Below, piece by piece: positions 14,987-27,581 of a stretch of DNA of 37,440 bases. The notes beneath the pieces were generated by a model, which worked only from the letters and a program-made list of their open reading frames with translations, had not been told where the DNA came from and did not search any database. Where the stretch lies: IMG/VR virus record IMGVR_UViG_3300021963_000323, positions 1-37,440 of that record. One strand, 5' to 3'. Source of the stretch: a virus. The first letter of the stretch is position 1; each line of letters opens with the position of its first letter. The translations under genes and the position numbers were made by a program.

Positions 14987-17900
14987 TTATATCTCCATTA
15001 GATACCAACCTTGTTGCTCTGATGGTATTCCGTTTCCATCAGCATCGACATCTCCAGAATATATTAAACCAAATGCAGCATTTGGTGTATTCACAACTAA
15101 TTCTCCTCCGCCATAGTTAGAAACACCACCAATATTACTACCAACAGATCCATTCTGCAATCTAACATTTTGAGGAGCTCTAACTACTAGGTTAATCGAG
15201 AAATTCAATGCCCCACCAACATCAACAATTCTCACCGTATCACCAGTAACAGCATCAGATGGAAGACGAAGAATTAACGTGGATGATGGTCTCACCAAAT
15301 ACTGTAGATTTGGTCTTAACTGATAAGCAGTAGCATCGGTATTTCCTTGCGTAGCAACGAAAATAGTTTTTCTTCCTCCATTTTCATTATAGAAGTTTTC
15401 ATGACCAAACGCCTCTATAGAAGCATCTTGCCTTATTCTAAATGGTTTTTCGTTATTAATTCCTAAATTATTAATACTAAATGTATTGACAGCTACCGAA
15501 GGGCTACTCGTATATGTGCCATTAAGTGTTAAAGTGGCTCCAGTATTAGCAGAAGTTAATTCTCTGCCTACAACAGTAGTTCCTGTCTGAGCATCCACAA
15601 AGAATCTAGGAGTAAATGGATTCAATTGTGTCTCTGCGCCAGAAGGAGAGAGAAGAGTTCCAACTGCTAAATCATCACCAACTCTTAACGTACCAGCGAT
15701 CTTAGTATTTCCAGTAGATCCTATTACTTCTAATGCAATATTTGTTGCAGCGTCTATTCTAGATTTATCAAAAGATCCCGAAGAGAAGAAAGAATCTTTA
15801 AAGATTTTTAGATTTCCACCATTATAAATGCTGGTATTACCAGAAGCAGACTCAACATAGAATTTTGGTAGAGTGCCATTTGTAATAACAAAATACTGTT
15901 TTCCAGGTAATGACGTGACAGTATTACCACTCAATTCAATAGAGTTGTGAACTGTTAGGTTACCACCTCCACTAGTTGATATCGTAGATCCAGTAGAAGT
16001 GCTGGATGGATTTACATAAAAATCAGCAAGATTTTGGTCGTTTTCAGCATTTATGAATGGTTTTTGAGTATCGAAACCAATCACAACATCACCAGAAATT
16101 TGAGTATTTCCAGTGGTGCTAATAGTTTTAAATACCTCCAATGGATCTTTTGAAATAGATTCATTGCCAAAATCACCATTATTAATGGTAAAAGCTTGAG
16201 CGTCAGCTGGATTTACTGTTGCAATTCTAACATATTCTCCACCTTCGTTTAGATTAAGTTTATTCAATCTAAACAAATCACCTAATTTAATATTAGCAGA
16301 AAATTCTGCAACATTAATAAATTCATCTACTGCGGAAATCGGATTTGGTGTAATATATGAAGCATTTTGCTGCTCAACCAATCTGTAAACTCTTTCTCCA
16401 TCGGGATGAGAAGTTTGTGATGTTCCTCTTTCTGCTCTAGTAACTTCTACAACATAAGGAATTGGACTATTTGGAACATATGATGTTGGGAAATTGACAG
16501 TTTGTACTATTTCTTTACCAATCAAATATAATTGATTTATACCAATACCAGTTGGATTGTTTATTGGTAGATTCCAAGTTTGTTTTCCATCTAAAATTCT
16601 ATTCTTGAAAGCATCAGATCCCCATGGAACGTCACCTGTAGTATCAATAACAGTAGCAAACAATCTAACTCTAGCGGTTCCAGCATCATTAGATCCAGTC
16701 TGCAATGAGATTACAATAGAATTATCGGATGAATCCTTTAAAGTAAATCCAGTGCTATCTCTTTGGTCGATAAAATATGTCGTGAAAGAAGAAAGACCAG
16801 TTAAATTACCAGTATCAATAAATTCAACAGCATCATTTTGACTAAACCAATGAGAATCTACAATTATTTTGTTGGCAACTACTGTTTGAATATTCACTAA
16901 TCCATCAAAATTAGGAATTACCGAGAAGTAATCAATATTCAGATTAGCAAGATTTCCAACTGATTGTACTATTCCGACACCATCTGGAATTACCGTTCCA
17001 GTTGCTGATTGTTGTGTATAATCAGGACCATTGTTGGTGTAGGTAAATGTATTGGAATTTATGACAGTAATATTTACAAATCCTACAGTGTTAAATGAAT
17101 CTACACTGCTTACAATTTGCACATCACCAGAAAGATTATGAGATCCAATGGTAGTTACAGTAGCTGTATTTCCAGATCTTGCTAACGTCGCAATTCTAAC
17201 TGCGCCAAAGATATTTCTGTCAATACCCAAATTAGTATTCTTAAGTCCACCATTTTGAGTAATATCAGATTCAAAGAAAGATGATCCTAATACTCTCAAT
17301 CCATTTCTAATAGTAGTTGTGCCAGCAACACCACCTAATGTAAACTCTCCAACACTTAATCCAATATTAAGTTTAGTAATACCAGATGGGAATAGAGTAA
17401 ACTCGTTATTAAGTGAAGTTGTATTAATTTCTCCACCATTAATGGTTAATACACCGTCAACAATAGTTCTATAATTTTTAATGTTAAAGAAACTAGACTG
17501 TCTATTTGCAAATGCGCCACCTACTGTTATATTTGAAGAGAAACCAGTGTCATCATTACCAACTGTCCCAATATCTACGATGGAATTTGATGCATTATTA
17601 TGAATATTAAGTGTTGTGGATCCAGTTACAGATGTACCTATATTTACTGTTTGCTGAGTAGTTACAAGGTTACCTACATTAACAGTAGTCGCGTATCCAG
17701 CAAGAGTAAGGTTAGTTGTGCCAGACTGATTTGCAATCGTAAAGATGCCAGAGGTCGTGCGAATATCTCCACCATTTACATCAATGTCAGATTCAAATCT
17801 GAAATCTCCAGTAATTCTACCAGTGCCAGCAACTACAAGTGCTCTATCTAAGCTACCGTCACCAACATTAATACCAACTCGCCCATTGTTATTTGTAGCA

Positions 17901-20900
17901 ATTCTAAATGTAGCAGTTGTATCTGGATTTGCGCTATCACCACCAACTAAGAATGCATGTCTTGTTGATAATGGAGTGCCGCCGTTGAGGTTAGAGAAAT
18001 TTGTTTGCTTTCTACCACTAATAAAGGCGTTACCAACAACGTCTAAGTTTGCTCTTGGCTCGGTTCTTGTAGGAGCAATAAATCCAGTTGCATAATCAGT
18101 TGAAAGTGCTCTAGCAAGAGTATTAATACCTAACTTATAATCACCATATGTTTCAGTTTCAGTGCGAAGTGCCTCTGCACCAATCACACCAACTTCTTTC
18201 CACTGAGATTCACCGCGAGCAATTTCAAGTGTGCCTTGAATGATAGGATTAGTAGAAGAAATATATGGAGGATTGCCAACTAACGTTGCTTCCGATGCTC
18301 TTCTAGTTAAGAGATAAACATAGCTATTTGCTTCAGCATACTCATATCCTTCCGATGGATTATCATAAACAGTGTGTACACCATTGATAAATTGTAGTCT
18401 GTCAACACCTCCAGTAATTCTAATTTGAGTTGCTCTAGTAATGTTTAGAGATGCACCAGGATTTGATGTGCTGAAGTTAACTTTACCAATTTGGAAAATT
18501 AGTTTAATAACATTTAGATTAGGATAGAATTGGACTCCTGTGATGTCAATAGATGATTCTTGTCCAGCAGGAGCACTTAATCTATATGCAACGTAAGAGT
18601 TAGCGTAAATCCAACCAAGAGAACCAGTATAATTAATCTGTGCTCCCTTGAGCATCACATCTCCAGATAGAGGAACTGAAGATCCAAATGCAATAGTCTG
18701 CGAAGAATCAAATCGTGCCTTCGCTCCCACAGTAAACTGATTTGGAGTAATATTTGTAATAGATGTGCGGAATGAATAACGCTGACTGCCGCGTGTATTC
18801 ATGTCGAATATCGCAGCTCTTACTCTATTCTTATCAATTACAACATCGCCAGCTCTTGTTGTATCTAATTGTGGGTCATCATCACCAGGGAATACACCTT
18901 GTCTATCTCCAGGTCTAGAAACAATTGTGAGAGATGGAGGCGTCATGATTGCCTCAAACTCTGGATCAACGTTAACAGTTACTGGAGAGTTGAAGAAGTT
19001 AGTTAGATTTGGTGGAGCATTGAGAGTAATAATATTCTCAAATGTAACGGGATCTTCAAATACCGTTACTAAACTTCCGAAATCTCCATCCTCTTCGGTC
19101 TCTTCATCTGTAATGATAGCATCAAGGAATTCTTCTTCGCCAGTAATAGCATTGATCTTACGATTACCGATATACAATTCACCGTTGGAGTTGATACCAG
19201 TATAGAATACAATACCAGCATCTTGACGCTTAGACTGTGCATAGAAATCTTGGACAGCAGTGAGAATAACAGTTTGTCTAGCAGGAAAACCAGTTGAGTA
19301 GTTACCAGGACCGAAACCTAGGTATTCAAATGTGTGGTTGCCAGCACGGGCAATAGATGGTCTACGCAATTCGACGTAGATTCTCTGCTCTAGTGGGAAT
19401 GGAGAATCACCCGCAATAGGAATTAATCTTTCTTCTGCACCAGAAGATGCAGCACCAGATCTAGCTTCAATCTTAGTAGAATTTGTAGCAAATTCATATC
19501 TACCAGATCCAGGATCTTGGACGAAATCTAATACCGCTTCTTTTGTAATGCTATTCTTAGCATCATTAATATAAACTAAACCATGAATATAGTTATCCGC
19601 AGAGCAGACTGATTCTGGTGGGTCAATAATTGTTGTATTCTGATTACCACCTTGAGAATCAGATCCATCATACTGGAATAGTAATGCGTCATTCTTATAT
19701 GATAGTGGATATAGTCTAGAAACTGGTTGACTAAACTTAAAGTTTCTAAAGTTTGTGCCAATACCAGATCCAGTTGGATATGGAGAAATATCACCACGAA
19801 TACAAGTTAGATAGTAAATACCATCTTGTTGACGTGGAATTCTTCTTTGGATAGTTTCAATTTTGTAAATATAATATGTTTGTGCTAAGTCTTCTACATC
19901 TTCAACGCTCACAACACGATACTGTCTAGCAGCATCATCGGTAATAATATCACCAGGAGTTACAGTGTAAACATTAGATGCTTCCACACCATACAAGAAA
20001 TTAGACTTATCTTCTTTACCAAAGTTTGGTCTGGAAATTAGCTCAGCAATTACATCTGCTTCGCCGTCAATTTCTTGAATGAAGAAGGTCTGAGTTCTTT
20101 CATCAAAATCTAATTCACCCTGCACTTCCTTGAGGATGAGATAGTTAAACGTCTGTGTACCACCTTCTACTGGCTCAGTGCCATACCACGAATGCACGAC
20201 CGCAGTTCCAGTATACTCACCATACCACCTAATTCTCTTTTCTGGAATAAAGTTTCCGTTTCCACCTTGAGGTTGTGCAACCTTTACAGTTACAAATCTC
20301 TGTGCTTTCAGCGACTCAACATCAAGTCCATGATCGAATACGACCATTTCCATATATCCATCTTCAACAATCTTAGCAGACTGAATAGTAAATGAAATAT
20401 TACTTTCAGTCTTAGTGCCTTCGATTCTCTTTCTAATTTCTGGATTATATGGGTCGTATGTGCCCAATACACCAGTTACACCAATTCTTTCTCTTGGTGA
20501 TGGACCATTTTGGAAGAATGTTGCATCTCTCTGGTCATTAGCAGAAACTGGCTTAAGTAGTAGTCTCTGTGGTAGTAGTTTTCTAGTTTCGTCAGTTCTA
20601 ATCTTAATTGCAAATCCATTAATAGGATCTCTAACGTCATCACGATAGTTAGGAATTACATAACGGAATTTATATGTTCTATCGTCATTTTTCCTAGTAT
20701 CGTCTGCTCTATAGAAGAATGAGTCAGGAGTTCTAGGTGGCTTGTTGACATATGAAGATCCTCTTGATGGGTCATTAAGAGTTAATCTCTGATAGATTTC
20801 ATTACCCTGAAGAAGAGTTCTAATAAACCATCCACCTTGTACTGGGTCATAACCAATAGGACTTCTCTTTCTGTTTGCAAATACAAAGAAGTCTTCCCCA

Positions 20901-23900
20901 CTTGGATAGTTGAATTGGACAGCATTCTGTCTGTTAATAGCATCAGATACTGTAAGGTAAATCGAGAATTGATTATTCTTAGTATATGTTGCTGGTCTAC
21001 CAACATAATAATTTCTATTTGTCTCTAGTCTACCACCAGATGTCTTAGATGGTAGTGTGGCAAGAGCAGAAGCATCAACTTCACCATTTGTTAGATTCTC
21101 TTCTAATGGATAGAAGAATACTTGTTGCACCTGGACACCAGCGTAAGCAGTATCAAATACATTATTAGTTGAAGTTTCAAATACTCTAGAGCTAGTTAGT
21201 CTAGCAGTATAACGATGTAGGTCATATTGGACATTGGTTAGATACTGATGGACTTCAATCTGCACATCTGGGTCAATTCCATTTGTCTCAGATGAGTAGA
21301 TGTAATTACCAGCAGTAGCGTTCTCAATGCTTGTGGCAAGCATGAATGATTGGGTGTCATTAAACTGCGCTACAGCACCACCAGCAGAATAGTCATATGG
21401 AGATGTAATCTTACCAGGAGCAATTACATAGTAGTTTTTATTGCTTTCAAATCCTTTTGGTAGTCTTACTAGACGCTTATCAACATTAACTGGTAGTCCA
21501 GTTGAAGGATCTTTTCTAGGAACTGCAACTAGTCTTACTGGGGTGCCAGTTTCTAGGTTATGTGGATTGCTACCAGATACTTTGAAGAGTGTTGCTCTTT
21601 GTGCAAAAGATGAAGTATTGACAAGTTGAGAGATGAGAGGCTCTGCATCAACACCATTCTTGATAATGTTTTCGATAACTCTCATCTTTTCGATGATAGC
21701 ATCTTTAGTGCCAGCACACTTATTAGCAGCAGCATCTACAATGATACTATTATCTCTTTCTGGTTTTGTTCTTTCAGTATATTCATCCGTGCCAAAAGTT
21801 TTTGGTGGAAGTGGAGATAGATTCTGAAGAGCACCAAGAAGAATATCAAATTCAGTGGAGATAGTATAAGCTACATCTGCACAACGTGGCACTCCAGCAG
21901 TTGTAGTATCAATTGTAGAATCAATTTGATAATCAAGAGTTGTAGCAGGAAGTTTGATGTATAGTGGGTCTGTGTCTTGACCGTCACCTGTTCTCCAATT
22001 ACGCATTGCGAGAATAGCAAGGTCTCTTGCCTTCTTGTATGCGTAAACGCTCATATCAAGCTCACCAACCAATGATTCTGCGCCAGCATTATACTTAAGT
22101 GCAGGATATTGATATGCATCATTTTGTAGTTTGATGAGAAGAATACCAAATAGACTATCAATAGTATTTCTTACATCTAAGCAAGAATTTGGATTATCAT
22201 TAGGAATATCTGGTCCAACAATACCAAGTTGAGCTGGTCCTTCCGAAATATCAAAGTCTCTTACATTGAGTTGATTTGTTACTGCCTTAAAGCAAAGGTC
22301 TCTAGCAGCCTGGAATGCAGTTACAGATTGAGCAATTTCACCAGCAAGACCATTGTTAAGTAGAGTGTTTCCAGTGCTATCAAAGTATGACTTAGTTGCC
22401 GTAATGATGTTGTAGTTACCACCAAGAGCAATATCTTCAGCGATAGCATCTACAATATATCCAATATCACGCTTGCACTTAGCTTGGAATTCTGGTGCGC
22501 TGCCATAATTAATTGATGGCAGTGCTGGGTTTTGTGAAGTGCCAGTTACCAAGTCACCCTGACGAATTCTAGCAAAAATAATGCTAGAAAGAGTATCTAA
22601 CGTCGCCTGGACATTAGAGCATGACTGACTATCATCATTGTTAGCAGTTACACCAGGAGTGCCAAATACGCTAAGACCAGACTGCTCAGTGCCAGGTGCA
22701 GGATCTCCAGTAAGGGTAAGATCTTTAATAGTTAACTGGTTAGTAATTGCCTTCTTCATTTCGGCAATTGCTGCAGTGTAAGCAAAGATTGACTTATCTT
22801 CCTCACCCTGTAGACCATTTTGAATCCATGCCTGCTCTACCGTAGATACGGTGACAACAACATCATCAACTAGATTTACACCACCAATCGAAGATCCAGG
22901 AATAGTTACTGTGTTTCCTGCAGCATACTTATAACCACCAGTAGCAATAGAAACAGATGCAATAGCACCAGTTGCACTTCTAGTTACATTGAAGGTAGCA
23001 CCAACTCCAACTCCATTGGTTGTAGTTGCAACTCCAGTATAAACTCTATTCTGTCTATTTGCAAGTGTTGTGCCGTTGCTACGAGTAAAGGTTAGAATCT
23101 TTCCATTTACTTTATCATCGAGGAAATACTGACGAATAAAGTCAATAGAATAAGAATTGCCTAAAGTTGTTAAATCCGTTGAAATGGCATCGATGAAGAA
23201 ACCAATATCTCTCTTACACTTATTCTCCAAATCAGCAGGTGCTGGTGTTGGAAGTCCACTAGCAATAAGAGCATTGTATGCATTGTTGATGATTTCCGCT
23301 CTGTTTTGCTGGATTAAACGATATGAATCCTTGTAACGTGAATAAACGTTAGTCTGAGTATCGCCGCCGTCAGTAAATCCAGGACCACCATAGTAGAAGT
23401 CAGGATACTCGATGGCAAGTTTGGCAGCTGCTTTGTCTACAATCTCTCTTCTGTTAGAAAGAATGAGATTCTTAGCATCAAAATAACGTGATGGAGCGCC
23501 AACATATGCTTCGGCAGCAGTTACAATACCAGAATTTCCAGTTGTCCTGAGATCTTGAATTACACCATCTAGGACATAACCAATATCACGCTTGCACTTG
23601 TCATCATTAGGAACGGTAACTGTTGGATACTGTGCTTTAGCGATGTTAAGTGCTTCTTCGGCAATAAAATCTTTATTGAGATTGATTAGGGTGCCAGCAT
23701 CGAATGCTCTACCAGAAGAGGTTGCAAACTTACCTTGCTCTAACTCAAAGTTGAGAATTACTCCACCAACTCCAATAGAGTTAGCAGTGATAGTAATGAG
23801 TGCTTGCACATCATCAGTATCATTTCTATTACCTAGTTTAAACTGAGTAGTGCTTACAATTTCTCTAACATAAGTGCCTGCAGGAATTGGATTTGTTTGT

Positions 23901-26320
23901 CCAGAAGCAACCGTAGCGGTCACTTTCATTCCTTCTACCAATCCAATGGTAGTGATGTTATTAGGAACAGAAACTGTTGACTGTCCAACAAACGTAGAGC
24001 ATCCTTCAATACGGAAATTCCAATTACGCATTGCAGCAACTGCAAGGTTTCTAGCATAATTGAATGCATCAAGAGTTTCTTCTTTCTCAGTGCTGATATA
24101 ATCTAGCTCATTACCAACATAGTATGCTTGTGCTGCTTGGACGCTATTAATGTTGCCACCAACACGAAGGTCGTTAGCAACAGCTTCTAGAATATATCCT
24201 ACGTCACGCTTACACTTATTGATACTGATAGGTCTGGTGAGTAGATATGGATACTTGCGAGTGATATATCCATATGTCTCTGCAGCGATAAAATCTCTAT
24301 TTAAATCAATGAGATTGGCAGCATCCTGGTCGTTATTAGATACACCAGTTACTACGTCTGGACTTAGAATTGATAGAGCAACATCCCACTTCTGATAACC
24401 AGCAGGAGAAATTTCTGCACTACGAATAGAACCAGTAAATCCTTGTGCTGGATCGAGCTTGACATAAATCTTTTCGTGAGCAGCAGCGCCTAAACGATAT
24501 CCATTTACAGTAGTAGATGGTTTTTGTAGAGGATTAGATGCTTCATCTTGTCCATAATATAGTTTTGTAGTAACTGAAGAATTACCACCAGGACCATCAA
24601 AGTTTAGAGCATTTGGATTTCTAGACTTAATTTGGTTGAAGGTATAATACTGGAATTTCTTTGTTGTAGTAGTTACTTTTCTTGGTGGGACAATGTGTGA
24701 AATGTATCCACCCTGATCCTGAGCAAAAGAATATCCTTTATAACCAATTGCATGTAGTGAAGTGTTACCAAAGTTAGAGTTTGAGTTGGTGATAGACATG
24801 TCACCACCAGACTCCATCAAGAAGTGGTCTGCAAAACCAACAGCGAAGATGGAAACGTTTTGGATAAATGCATCATTAGATGCTTTAACGTGGAAGTTTC
24901 TCCAATCATCTTTCCAGTATGCATCACCTTTAGTGTGATAAGGAGTTGTAGCAAAGGCATCAGTGAGAGGTGCTTGATTCCAAGTATTACTAAACTCATC
25001 GTAACGGATGAATGCACGGTCGTCTCTCTGTAGCGAAACACCCGTATACTGGGCGATAACCATTGACTTGAAACCGCTGGCTTTGCTACCATCAGCGTGG
25101 ATGCCGCAGATACCCCACGTAGAGCGGATAGAGACGTTGAAAACGTATGGCGAGGCAGATTCTACCGAATCGACTTCTGCCTGCGTGATGGCGTTTGTAT
25201 CGAGCGTAGGAGGCGTAATTGGTTGCCCAATTCTATCACCTAAACCAACAGCAGCTGCATTCTTGCCTTCTACACGATAACTGAATTCTTTAGGGTCAGT
25301 TACACTGATTTCTCTAACAGCAAATACGCCTGTCAGAGGGTCATTTGCGAGAGGAATAGGCTCACTTGCACCAGCAGGTAGCGTAGAGCGTAGATTTGCA
25401 ACAGCAACTGCCTGTCCTACATAATAACCATGATTTGTTTTTGTTCTAACAGTAACGTCAAGTGCAGTTGTGCCAGGAACGTTGTTAACTTCAATAGAAT
25501 CAATACGAATAGCATCCTGAAGAGGACCAACAATTCTGTTTTCCTGTGGTCTCTGAGTGAATTCACCTGGATCATCAATTGTAGGTTGGAATAGAGAGAA
25601 TGCGCGAGCAATCTTTCTATAGAGTAGACCTAGATCATCTCTGCTAGCAAATTCAAAGTTACAAATTTTGTGGTGTGAGTAATAAGGAATTTGCTTGATT
25701 GTGGAATTTGGTTGCGAATATACCTTACCAATTCCATCATTAACATCATAAAGTGGTGAATTAGGCTCTACATCACCATCAAGAATGGTAAACTGCCAGA
25801 AATAGCAACCACCAGTTACGTTGAAAAGAGTTGTACGACCAATATCCTTATCTGCTGGGTCTGGCACATATAAAGGATGTAGACGAGTTCTACGAAGGTC
25901 CATACCAACAAGTGAGGTGCCTCTAGGAATCGTAGCACCACCATTAGGACCATTAAACTTGTAGAGAATGTTATCAGGATTGCTGAGGTCTACAATCGAG
26001 TTATCTTCCCACTCACCAGTAGCTTGATTGAACGCAAAAGGAACAATCTCCTCTGGATTCATGATACCTGGACGGTTATCAATGTAGTGATTACCAGGAG
26101 ATAACATGATAGTGAATTGATCAAAACGATCATTCTCAGCGCCAGGAACATACGAATAACGAGCAACCTCAAGGAATGCTCTCTGAATTGTGAGAAAAGG
26201 GCGGGTTGGGGAGTTGCCTCTATTATCTAAGGCATCAGAAGCATTAAAATCGTCAGGTGAAACATATAGATATCTTCCAGTTTTGCTGGAAATTAAATTC
26301 TCTAATTTAGTTAATGGCAT
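14987..26320 (-). CDS. giant virion structural protein, cyanomyovirus type (3777 aa)
   Basis: The N-terminus (GNSPTRPFLTIQRAF, residues 35-50) has the look of the entry to a right-handed beta-helix. Between ~700 and ~1560 two cysteine-centred repeats alternate: KCKRD(I/V)G(Y/F)(I/V)..A(I/V)..DL...GN near residues 701, 908, 1035 and 1282, and xC.xV..T(I/L).....IL...L (for example SCLDVRNTIDSLFGILL). The rest is beta-rich, with Gly-rich YxxGxTVTIPG and STGNT(K/Q)I(S/A)G-type repeats, ending in QQGWYLMEI. Large proteins of this style occur in T4-like cyanophages as tail-fibre or baseplate-associated proteins; the exact role is inferred. Late promoter 42 bases upstream. Confidence 0.85.
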   Translation of the reverse strand: MPLTKLENLISSKTGRYLYVSPDDFNASDALDNRGNSPTRPFLTIQRAFLEVARYSYVPGAENDRFDQFTIMLSPGNHYIDNRPGIMNPEEIVPFAFNQATGEWEDNSIVDLSNPDNILYKFNGPNGGATIPRGTSLVGMDLRRTRLHPLYVPDPADKDIGRTTLFNVTGGCYFWQFTILDGDVEPNSPLYDVNDGIGKVYSQPNSTIKQIPYYSHHKICNFEFASRDDLGLLYRKIARAFSLFQPTIDDPGEFTQRPQENRIVGPLQDAIRIDSIEVNNVPGTTALDVTVRTKTNHGYYVGQAVAVANLRSTLPAGASEPIPLANDPLTGVFAVREISVTDPKEFSYRVEGKNAAAVGLGDRIGQPITPPTLDTNAITQAEVDSVESASPYVFNVSIRSTWGICGIHADGSKASGFKSMVIAQYTGVSLQRDDRAFIRYDEFSNTWNQAPLTDAFATTPYHTKGDAYWKDDWRNFHVKASNDAFIQNVSIFAVGFADHFLMESGGDMSITNSNSNFGNTSLHAIGYKGYSFAQDQGGYISHIVPPRKVTTTTKKFQYYTFNQIKSRNPNALNFDGPGGNSSVTTKLYYGQDEASNPLQKPSTTVNGYRLGAAAHEKIYVKLDPAQGFTGSIRSAEISPAGYQKWDVALSILSPDVVTGVSNNDQDAANLIDLNRDFIAAETYGYITRKYPYLLTRPISINKCKRDVGYILEAVANDLRVGGNINSVQAAQAYYVGNELDYISTEKEETLDAFNYARNLAVAAMRNWNFRIEGCSTFVGQSTVSVPNNITTIGLVEGMKVTATVASGQTNPIPAGTYVREIVSTTQFKLGNRNDTDDVQALITITANSIGVGGVILNFELEQGKFATSSGRAFDAGTLINLNKDFIAEEALNIAKAQYPTVTVPNDDKCKRDIGYVLDGVIQDLRTTGNSGIVTAAEAYVGAPSRYFDAKNLILSNRREIVDKAAAKLAIEYPDFYYGGPGFTDGGDTQTNVYSRYKDSYRLIQQNRAEIINNAYNALIASGLPTPAPADLENKCKRDIGFFIDAISTDLTTLGNSYSIDFIRQYFLDDKVNGKILTFTRSNGTTLANRQNRVYTGVATTTNGVGVGATFNVTRSATGAIASVSIATGGYKYAAGNTVTIPGSSIGGVNLVDDVVVTVSTVEQAWIQNGLQGEEDKSIFAYTAAIAEMKKAITNQLTIKDLTLTGDPAPGTEQSGLSVFGTPGVTANNDDSQSCSNVQATLDTLSSIIFARIRQGDLVTGTSQNPALPSINYGSAPEFQAKCKRDIGYIVDAIAEDIALGGNYNIITATKSYFDSTGNTLLNNGLAGEIAQSVTAFQAARDLCFKAVTNQLNVRDFDISEGPAQLGIVGPDIPNDNPNSCLDVRNTIDSLFGILLIKLQNDAYQYPALKYNAGAESLVGELDMSVYAYKKARDLAILAMRNWRTGDGQDTDPLYIKLPATTLDYQIDSTIDTTTAGVPRCADVAYTISTEFDILLGALQNLSPLPPKTFGTDEYTERTKPERDNSIIVDAAANKCAGTKDAIIEKMRVIENIIKNGVDAEPLISQLVNTSSFAQRATLFKVSGSNPHNLETGTPVRLVAVPRKDPSTGLPVNVDKRLVRLPKGFESNKNYYVIAPGKITSPYDYSAGGAVAQFNDTQSFMLATSIENATAGNYIYSSETNGIDPDVQIEVHQYLTNVQYDLHRYTARLTSSRVFETSTNNVFDTAYAGVQVQQVFFYPLEENLTNGEVDASALATLPSKTSGGRLETNRNYYVGRPATYTKNNQFSIYLTVSDAINRQNAVQFNYPSGEDFFVFANRKRSPIGYDPVQGGWFIRTLLQGNEIYQRLTLNDPSRGSSYVNKPPRTPDSFFYRADDTRKNDDRTYKFRYVIPNYRDDVRDPINGFAIKIRTDETRKLLPQRLLLKPVSANDQRDATFFQNGPSPRERIGVTGVLGTYDPYNPEIRKRIEGTKTESNISFTIQSAKIVEDGYMEMVVFDHGLDVESLKAQRFVTVKVAQPQGGNGNFIPEKRIRWYGEYTGTAVVHSWYGTEPVEGGTQTFNYLILKEVQGELDFDERTQTFFIQEIDGEADVIAELISRPNFGKEDKSNFLYGVEASNVYTVTPGDIITDDAARQYRVVSVEDVEDLAQTYYIYKIETIQRRIPRQQDGIYYLTCIRGDISPYPTGSGIGTNFRNFKFSQPVSRLYPLSYKNDALLFQYDGSDSQGGNQNTTIIDPPESVCSADNYIHGLVYINDAKNSITKEAVLDFVQDPGSGRYEFATNSTKIEARSGAASSGAEERLIPIAGDSPFPLEQRIYVELRRPSIARAGNHTFEYLGFGPGNYSTGFPARQTVILTAVQDFYAQSKRQDAGIVFYTGINSNGELYIGNRKINAITGEEEFLDAIITDEETEEDGDFGSLVTVFEDPVTFENIITLNAPPNLTNFFNSPVTVNVDPEFEAIMTPPSLTIVSRPGDRQGVFPGDDDPQLDTTRAGDVVIDKNRVRAAIFDMNTRGSQRYSFRTSITNITPNQFTVGAKARFDSSQTIAFGSSVPLSGDVMLKGAQINYTGSLGWIYANSYVAYRLSAPAGQESSIDITGVQFYPNLNVIKLIFQIGKVNFSTSNPGASLNITRATQIRITGGVDRLQFINGVHTVYDNPSEGYEYAEANSYVYLLTRRASEATLVGNPPYISSTNPIIQGTLEIARGESQWKEVGVIGAEALRTETETYGDYKLGINTLARALSTDYATGFIAPTRTEPRANLDVVGNAFISGRKQTNFSNLNGGTPLSTRHAFLVGGDSANPDTTATFRIATNNNGRVGINVGDGSLDRALVVAGTGRITGDFRFESDIDVNGGDIRTTSGIFTIANQSGTTNLTLAGYATTVNVGNLVTTQQTVNIGTSVTGSTTLNIHNNASNSIVDIGTVGNDDTGFSSNITVGGAFANRQSSFFNIKNYRTIVDGVLTINGGEINTTSLNNEFTLFPSGITKLNIGLSVGEFTLGGVAGTTTIRNGLRVLGSSFFESDITQNGGLKNTNLGIDRNIFGAVRIATLARSGNTATVTTIGSHNLSGDVQIVSSVDSFNTVGFVNITVINSNTFTYTNNGPDYTQQSATGTVIPDGVGIVQSVGNLANLNIDYFSVIPNFDGLVNIQTVVANKIIVDSHWFSQNDAVEFIDTGNLTGLSSFTTYFIDQRDSTGFTLKDSSDNSIVISLQTGSNDAGTARVRLFATVIDTTGDVPWGSDAFKNRILDGKQTWNLPINNPTGIGINQLYLIGKEIVQTVNFPTSYVPNSPIPYVVEVTRAERGTSQTSHPDGERVYRLVEQQNASYITPNPISAVDEFINVAEFSANIKLGDLFRLNKLNLNEGGEYVRIATVNPADAQAFTINNGDFGNESISKDPLEVFKTISTTGNTQISGDVVIGFDTQKPFINAENDQNLADFYVNPSSTSTGSTISTSGGGNLTVHNSIELSGNTVTSLPGKQYFVITNGTLPKFYVESASGNTSIYNGGNLKIFKDSFFSSGSFDKSRIDAATNIALEVIGSTGNTKIAGTLRVGDDLAVGTLLSPSGAETQLNPFTPRFFVDAQTGTTVVGRELTSANTGATLTLNGTYTSSPSVAVNTFSINNLGINNEKPFRIRQDASIEAFGHENFYNENGGRKTIFVATQGNTDATAYQLRPNLQYLVRPSSTLILRLPSDAVTGDTVRIVDVGGALNFSINLVVRAPQNVRLQNGSVGSNIGGVSNYGGGELVVNTPNAAFGLIYSGDVDADGNGIPSEQQGWYLMEI

Positions 26321-26420: not shown

Positions 26421-26494
26421 AGCCCAAGGTCGGACTTGAACCGACGACCTACGGTTTACAAAACCGTTGCTCTATCCAGCTGAGCTACTCAGGC
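26421..26494 (-). tRNA. tRNA-Thr(UGU)
   Basis: 74 nt fold as a standard cloverleaf: acceptor GCCTGAG / CTTGGGC (with wobble pairs), D arm GCTC...GAGC, anticodon stem ACGGT / ACCGT with loop TTTGTAA (anticodon UGU, reads ACA), and T arm GTCGG TTCAAGT CCGAC. CCA is not encoded; the discriminator is U. Phages often carry tRNAs that read A/U-ending codons common in their own genes. Confidence 0.92.
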
Positions 26495-26495
26495 A

Positions 26496-26762
26496 TTATT
26501 CATCTTGTGGAAGTAATTCTGGATTTTCTATGTCTACATCAAACATTAGTGGATGCATCTCTTCCATTATTAGATAATTAGAAACTTTAAACAAGTCTTC
26601 ATCATCATAATCACGACGAGAGAGTGCTTCTGTTTGCACAGCTGGGTGGTCTTGTATAATTTGAGGTAATTCATCAAATGTATACGGAAGACCTTGGATG
26701 AAATACATCCTCACAACTTGCCCCATATAGAAACAATATGCTTGTGATAATGTGTATTTCAT
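26496..26762 (-). CDS. hypothetical acidic protein (88 aa)
   Basis: MKYTLSQAYCFYMGQVVRMYF is followed by PYTFDELPQIIQDHPAVQTEAL and a strongly acidic tail (DVDIENPELLPQDE). Preceded by GGGAATGTT. Its stop lies one base before the 5' end of tRNA-Thr, so gene and tRNA probably share a transcript that is then cut. No family recognised. Confidence 0.7.
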   Translation of the reverse strand: MKYTLSQAYCFYMGQVVRMYFIQGLPYTFDELPQIIQDHPAVQTEALSRRDYDDEDLFKVSNYLIMEEMHPLMFDVDIENPELLPQDE

Positions 26763-26783: not shown

Positions 26784-27254
26784 TTAGCGGGAATACTTGT
26801 TTTTACCACGATATGTCTCTGTTTGAGCGTGGCAATTCGGGCATATCAACCGAAGATTTTCTAAACGATTATCATAACGATTACCGTTTATGTGATCTAA
26901 CTCTATTGGAGTGATTTTACCATTCCAGTGAGTAATGCCACATTCTTCACACTGATGAGTTTTGATACCTTCTTGTAAGAGGCGATTTTTTAACTTGTAA
27001 GACTGATGATATGAATTTTCAGTCAAATAATATTCAATTGGTTTTGTATTAAAGTTATGGGTTTTCCCTTTTAGATGAGCTTGACCAGTCATATGAGATA
27101 CATCCAATCCCATAGATTGTATACGCTGTTTCATAACAGCGTAATTACCTCCAGCTTGTTTTAATCCTAATTTAGATAAAACTTGTCTGTAGCTCAAAGA
27201 AGTTTTTACAGCTTCAACAAATTGTTCATCTGTATAAGTTCTTGGTTTTCCCAT
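26784..27254 (-). CDS. free-standing HNH endonuclease (156 aa)
   Basis: The N-terminal half (YTDEQFVEAVKTSLSYRQVLSKLGL ... MKQRIQSMGLD) is the helix-turn-helix-like segment seen in many phage HNH homing enzymes. The nuclease follows: zinc-type pair CEEC (102-105), LDH with the catalytic His121, NRLENLRL, and CPNC (138-141) with His142. All expected HNH residues are present, so it is probably active as a nicking or cutting enzyme. It starts 43 bases downstream of an intron-bearing tRNA-Leu and has its own late promoter. A partnership with that intron is inferred from position only. No good ribosome-binding site is seen. Confidence 0.9.
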   Translation of the reverse strand: MGKPRTYTDEQFVEAVKTSLSYRQVLSKLGLKQAGGNYAVMKQRIQSMGLDVSHMTGQAHLKGKTHNFNTKPIEYYLTENSYHQSYKLKNRLLQEGIKTHQCEECGITHWNGKITPIELDHINGNRYDNRLENLRLICPNCHAQTETYRGKNKYSR

Positions 27255-27297: not shown

Positions 27298-27581
27298 TAG
27301 GAGCGGCGAGACTTGAACTCGCATAGCTTAAAGCCGACGAATTTTCTTACCACTATAGTTTTCACTACCCTTTCAGTTTGTGGTCTAGACTATCCCTTCA
27401 CCATACTTTTCAGTTTAGGTGCTCCCCGTCTAGTCGTTACACCTTCAAGATTTCTCTTGCTTGGCTCGGGATTGCCATTTTAAAGGTTTCCCCGAATTTG
27501 AGGAGTTACACTCATAAGGTTTCCCAAATGAGGCTCAATTTTACATAAGTCCGTTGTGTCTACCTATTCCACCACGCTCCC
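27298..27581 (-). tRNA. tRNA-Leu(UAA) interrupted by a group I intron
   Basis: The two exons (27547-27581, 35 nt; 27298-27345, 48 nt) join into an 83-nt class II tRNA: acceptor GGGAGCG / CGCTCCT, D arm GTGGAATAGGTAGACAC typical of Leu, anticodon stem ACGGA / TTCGT around CTTAAAA (anticodon UAA), a long variable arm (GGCTTTAAGC), T arm GCGAG TTCAAGT CTCGC, and discriminator A, the leucine identity base. The 201-nt intron lies after U34, the same position as the cyanobacterial tRNA-Leu intron. CCA is not encoded. A consensus sigma70 promoter lies 136 bases upstream with a terminator-like hairpin in between. Confidence 0.9.
27346..27546 (-). ncRNA. group I self-splicing intron (IC3-like) in tRNA-Leu
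   Basis: The ribozyme core is readable: the guide TTGAGCC (27532-27538) can pair with exon ...CTT to give the expected U-G pair at the 5' splice site; P element AATTCGGGGAAACC (27486-27499); Q element AATCCCGAGCCAAGC (27459-27473), with P4 pairing TTCGGG / CCCGAG; R element containing ACGACTAGACGGG and S element GATAGTC (27382-27398), with P7 pairing GACTA / TAGTC; and a terminal G before the 3' exon AAAATTCGT. These elements match my memory of the Anabaena tRNA-Leu intron closely. It is small, with no internal ORF. Confidence 0.88.

Follow-up and report, generated by a model that had tools for sequence, protein, structure and literature searches.

A group I intron in a phage tRNA-Leu(UAA) gene and the adjoining HNH endonuclease gene: a probable collaborative-homing unit

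The DNA analysed in this study, hereafter the window, is the whole of the 37,440-base linear IMG/VR virus record IMGVR_UViG_3300021963_000323. A tRNA-Leu(UAA) gene on its minus strand is split between U34 and A35. The 5' exon (27547 to 27581, minus strand; tRNA positions 1 to 34) ends in CTT, corresponding to C32, U33 and U34, and is followed by a 201-nt intron (27346 to 27546, minus strand) and by the 3' exon (27298 to 27345, minus strand), which begins with AAAATTCG and does not encode CCA. At the splice junctions, the 5' exon ends in ACGGACTT, the intron reads ATGTAAAATTGAG...GTGGTAAG, and the 3' exon starts with AAAATTCGTCGG. ARAGORN called a tRNA-Leu(taa) with a 201-nt intron once introns were allowed, and the joined exons gave a complete 83-nt class II tRNA-Leu(taa) with all arms present. 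A preliminary description of the sequence had placed both exons, and these boundaries proved right to the base. It had also anticipated that a standard tRNA scan may miss the gene; indeed, both ARAGORN run without introns and the Rfam model RF00005 missed the tRNA-Leu gene and reported only a tRNA-Thr gene in the window.

A covariance-model search, which had been proposed together with the intron-allowing tRNA search, was performed with Rfam cmscan. RF00028 gave a single match in the window (27556 to 27364, minus strand) with 69.3 bits and an E value of 9.8e-16, against a cut-off of 50 bits, and this match spans the full model from 1 to 253. The CUU of the exon pairs with a GAG guide at intron positions 11 to 13 (27534 to 27536, minus strand) to form P1, with a U.G pair at the splice site; this assignment comes from reading the sequence, and the same layout of CTT and GAG is found in relatives. 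The final base of the intron is G (27346). P3 is formed by CTCC (27502 to 27505, minus strand) and GGAG (27422 to 27425, minus strand), and P7 by GACTA in the R region (27431 to 27435, minus strand) and TAGTC in the S region (27388 to 27392, minus strand).

Relatives were gathered from viral contigs and bacterial genomes by a degenerate pattern of the P4-P6 core, and their splice sites were set by joining the exons and demanding a complete tRNA. Because the search pattern fixed part of P4-P6, the pairing of P4-P6 is not independent evidence; the P3 pairs were untouched by it. Among the 99 Leu and Arg introns listed, the P3 pseudoknot helix showed 99.7% standard pairs compared with 60% after shuffling, and Watson-Crick double changes were observed in all four of its pairs. 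The other helices were paired in 98.6% (P7), 88.5% (P6a) and 84% (P8) of cases in the same 99 introns. The window intron thus has the catalytic P3-P9 core with pseudoknotted P3/P7 of group I introns. The covariance-model score, the P3/P7 covariation, the CUU/GAG P1 and the terminal G confirm that the 201 nt inserted behind U34 of this tRNA-Leu(UAA) gene are a group I intron, as had been proposed.

The assignment of the window to a phage, a marine one, was also borne out. Its tail genes are T4-like and include baseplate, collar and fibre genes, and the best relatives of the baseplate hub/lysozyme are those of Kyanoviridae cyanophages, at about 28-32% identity. Downstream of the tRNA-Leu gene are a gene of the phrog_4134 family (26496 to 26762, minus strand), which marks a locus shared with S-SM2 and other cyanophages, and an intronless tRNA-Thr(UGU) gene (26421 to 26494, minus strand; Rfam and ARAGORN), which is syntenic with that of S-SM2. 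The order in S-SM2 is the same, namely tRNA-Leu, the phrog_4134 gene, tRNA-Thr and the fibre gene, without the intron and without an HNH gene. In the window, the place of the S-SM2 fibre gene is occupied by a 3,777-aa ORF (14987 to 26320, minus strand), residues 934 to 975 of which gave a weak and possibly spurious match to the Pfam Phycobilisome family. Among the leucine codons of the window's large ORFs, UUA is used most often (34%).

The preliminary description had mentioned neither the gene that follows the tRNA nor the fact that the intron is one of many. An ORF of 156 aa (26784 to 27254, minus strand), which starts about 44 nt past the tRNA, encodes an HNH endonuclease, with matches to Pfam HNH_3 (2.3e-6) and HNH (6.1e-5) and to phrog_10822 (5.5e-52). 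The catalytic residues H121, N133 and H142 and the zinc cysteines C102, C105, C138 and C141 were invariant in an alignment of 24 relatives, and dN/dS was 0.03-0.19 (0.06-0.19 for pairs with the window). By these measures, the HNH gene is intact and under purifying selection. No PDB relative of this family was found by sequence. The "DNA endonuclease" that adjoins tRNA-Leu in S-RIM32 was considered as a relative of the HNH and rejected.

In a family set assembled by protein search and from the loci already gathered, including those fetched by the intron pattern, 93 of 99 distinct phrog_10822 HNH members lay in a tRNA gene or no more than 350 nt from one, in most cases tRNA-Leu. Ten of these 93 lay within a tRNA-Leu intron, 28 beside an intron-bearing tRNA and 55 beside an intronless tRNA. 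A 595-kb phage carries a member inside its tRNA-Leu(UAA) intron whose product is 49% identical to the window protein. This family occurs in many phages and may be a tRNA-targeting homing family in general. Among genes of the same exon type, an HNH gene was found directly 3' of 14 of 38 intron-bearing genes and of 0 of 104 intronless genes among the matches listed (Fisher p 1.2e-9, not corrected for kinship); when kinship was considered, three to five concordant pairs of HNH and intron stood against none, which is not significant. HNH genes of the same clade were also observed some 60 nt downstream of tRNA-Leu(UAA) genes that have no intron and whose exon type differs from that of the window, for example in L328, whose HNH is 78% identical to that of the window. 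An intron is therefore not always needed to tolerate the enzyme; enzyme turnover has been proposed as another way in which such arrangements arise (PMC10448857). In addition, of the 80 phage tRNA-Leu(UAA) genes with an intron among the matches listed, 43 had no HNH gene of the phrog_10822 family nearby.

At least about 80 of the phage pattern matches interrupt tRNA-Leu(UAA) at the position seen in the window. The remaining phage matches were in tRNA-Arg(UCU), Ser(UGA), Thr(UGU), a CAU-anticodon tRNA and a few others, or in capsid genes. Two huge phages, one of 595 kb and one of 735 kb, are among the carriers, and psbA or psbD was present in 11 of 45 carrier records among the matches listed. 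Blastn matches in cultured phages were mostly introns in protein genes, with the exception of Agrobacterium phage Atu_ph07 (MF403008.1, L545:1252-1613), which has a 278-nt intron at the same site of tRNA-Leu(UAA); this tRNA is unannotated, and the record calls a hypothetical CDS that starts at the 3' exon. In three contigs of uncultured Bacilli MAGs (L147, L164 and L224), the intron of tRNA-Leu(UAA) is about 680 nt long and contains a phage-type HNH gene, and the genes neighbouring that of L164 look ordinary chromosomal. Intron-bearing "tRNA-Tyr(ata)", "Ser(aga)" and "His(atg)" called by ARAGORN in phage loci were rejected as missplit tRNA-Leu(UAA) genes.

Several further arrangements were observed among these loci. 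Adjacent Arg(UCU) and Leu(UAA) tRNA genes about 600 nt apart each have their own group I intron in L029, L063 and L123. The tRNAs of L066, L069, L120, L328 and their relatives have a UAA anticodon with a short variable loop and a total length of 73-76 nt, unlike class II tRNA-Leu, and some of these genes have the intron and some the HNH only. In L020, L060, L067, L072 and L104, phage introns that follow the anticodon of a CAU-type or another tRNA fall into a 99/98 clade with introns that proteobacteria carry at this CAU site. Closely related cores occur in capsid genes of marine podovirus-like phages (L004:1946-2126 and 2655-2835; L019 and L026), and one intron family therefore occupies both tRNA and capsid genes. 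Photo_RC (psbA/psbD) matches were fragmented in G018, G028, G030, G035 and G042 (the records of L042, L066, L074, L081 and L113), which suggests introns in the photosystem genes of the same phages.

Near-identical introns were found in tRNA-Leu genes that are not orthologous. The introns of L066 and L107 are 99.5% identical and their tRNA-Leu exons 58.6%; the corresponding values are 93% and 67% for the window and L113, and 91% and 58% for the window and L069. The site therefore looks actively mobile in phages. An exact empty site was identified by comparing L116 with L506, whose flanks are 92% identical over 918 nt (blastn); the intron is missing precisely between GACTT and AAAAT. Furthermore, the tree of the phrog_4134 flank protein requires at least 15 changes in intron presence, and the HNH tree 22 changes of intron state. 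The ORF-less intron and the adjoining free-standing endonuclease are both sporadic at the same locus. These sequence comparisons support horizontal movement of the intron, at least among phages, in agreement with the preliminary description, which had offered a vehicle for such movement as one reading of a viral copy.

The tRNA-Leu(UAA) intron is the textbook example of an ancient intron with mainly vertical inheritance, and the window intron had been described as cyanobacterial-type. Like the cyanobacterial and plastid trnL intron (IC3), it lies after U34 of the same tRNA, belongs to a size class of about 200-300 nt, is ORF-less, and has a CUU/GAG P1 and a terminal G. In trees of 174 and 130 introns, whose power is limited by about 200 columns, however, the sampled cyanobacterial trnL introns formed a 100/100 clade of their own, set on a long branch, from which the window intron was excluded. 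The window intron grouped with other phage introns, its closest kin being dozens of tRNA-Leu(UAA) introns from other phages, among them psbA-bearing cyanophages, huge phages and Atu_ph07. A topology with the cyanobacterial trnL introns and the window-type phage introns on one side of the tree was not rejected (AU p 0.29); therefore, the window intron is not nested in the cyanobacterial clade, and it may still be sister to it. The label thus fits in site and architecture but not in lineage, with the reservation of the sister relation. The window intron also differs from the trnL intron in its phage location, its HNH neighbour and its signs of frequent movement.

We consider it probable that the intron and the neighbouring endonuclease gene constitute a collaborative-homing unit in a phage tRNA gene that splices to a working tRNA-Leu(UAA). 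In infected cells, the precursor would lose the group I intron after U34 by self-splicing to give the working tRNA. The downstream HNH would most likely cleave, close to the anticodon, those tRNA-Leu genes of co-infecting phages that lack an intron, and repair from the intron-bearing phage would copy the intron, the tRNA exons and the HNH gene together, while the donor would be protected from the HNH by its intron. It is rather unlikely, although it deserves weight, that the intron instead spreads by general phage recombination or reverse splicing and that the HNH is an independent, free-standing enzyme with tRNA-Leu as its own landing site, which merely adjoins the intron. HNH genes beside intronless tRNA-Leu and introns without an HNH are both common, as this would have it, and kindred introns after U34 of other tRNAs in which CUU precedes the site (Arg UCU, Ser UGA and Thr UGU) are expected for guide-directed reverse splicing. 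An independent HNH is at odds with the ten distinct family members that reside inside the intron, and with the association of 14/38 versus 0/104 within one exon type.

Capture from a cyanobacterial host of a trnL gene with the ancient intron inside it, which the preliminary description had offered as one origin, would account for the same tRNA, site and compact architecture and for the many carriers with psbA or psbD. It is nevertheless very improbable, and was rejected as the likeliest origin on the basis of the tree, a genome-wide blastn search and the mismatch between exons and introns. The intron is outside the 100/100 trnL clade, even if a sister relation was not rejected; in 292 cyanobacterial genomes there were only 22 weak intron matches by blastn, at most 81% identical and mostly partial, the best being tRNA-fMet introns at about 75%; and near-identical introns in unrelated exons contradict the joint capture of an intron and a trnL gene. 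Least probable of all, and scarcely credible in our estimation, is that the intron is kept for a benefit to the phage, such as delayed tRNA maturation or an anticodon loop hidden from host anticodon nucleases. The anticodon loop is indeed interrupted and UUA is the commonest leucine codon, but close relatives have the same tRNA without the intron (at least 104 loci), only the spliced tRNA is useful, and the spliced loop is normal.

According to a 2014 review, all phage group I introns then known interrupt protein genes, and phage tRNA introns are not mentioned in the main texts searched of subsequent publications on introns in phages and huge phages or on a 2025 group I intron database; this concerns the open literature, so that priority is uncertain. 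Both kinds, the tRNA group I intron and collaborative homing, are known in themselves; what may be new is their occurrence in a class of host gene and a lineage for which they were not known. In phages, the tRNA-Leu(UAA) site, familiar chiefly from slow vertical inheritance in cyanobacteria, holds introns whose movement is plain. A candidate mobility enzyme accompanies them, which opens the route by which tRNA introns spread to direct testing, also in a phage that is in culture. Because standard tRNA scans skip intron-bearing genes, the tRNA complement of phages is probably underestimated. As a speculation that we regard as more doubtful than likely, phage tRNA genes might hold a large and overlooked stock of mobile tRNA introns. 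Phages equipped with a tRNA-Leu-specific HNH family would then have carried U34 introns to one another and into the chromosomes of bacteria from several phyla, and most tRNA-Leu introns outside the cyanobacteria would descend from phage-borne ones. The uncultured Bacilli with an HNH of the same family inside the tRNA-Leu(UAA) intron would be an example of the spread into bacterial chromosomes.

Related arrangements are known from other systems. The T4 SegB-type enzymes are free-standing endonucleases in tRNA regions (PMC13096335; SegB also in PMC3984707); like the window HNH, they are free-standing phage homing endonucleases acting on a tRNA gene region, whereas no intron is present at the SegB site. 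A cyanobacterial tRNA-fMet intron encodes an endonuclease (Bonocora and Shub 2001, as cited in PMC3984707). As described there, that enzyme resembles the window HNH in being aimed at the anticodon region of a tRNA and in being tied to a group I intron, although it belongs to a cellular tRNA-fMet gene. Collaborative homing itself has a precedent in the psbA intron of cyanophage S-PM2, where psbA without the intron is cut by the free-standing enzyme F-CphI and the intron prevents this cleavage (PMC6083498). The S-PM2 system and that of the window share an ORF-less group I intron, a free-standing endonuclease gene adjoining the host gene and a T4-like cyanophage setting. In the window, on the other hand, the host gene is a tRNA gene, the enzyme is a zinc-type HNH (phrog_10822) and not an Endo VII-motif enzyme like F-CphI, and its family is also found inside introns.
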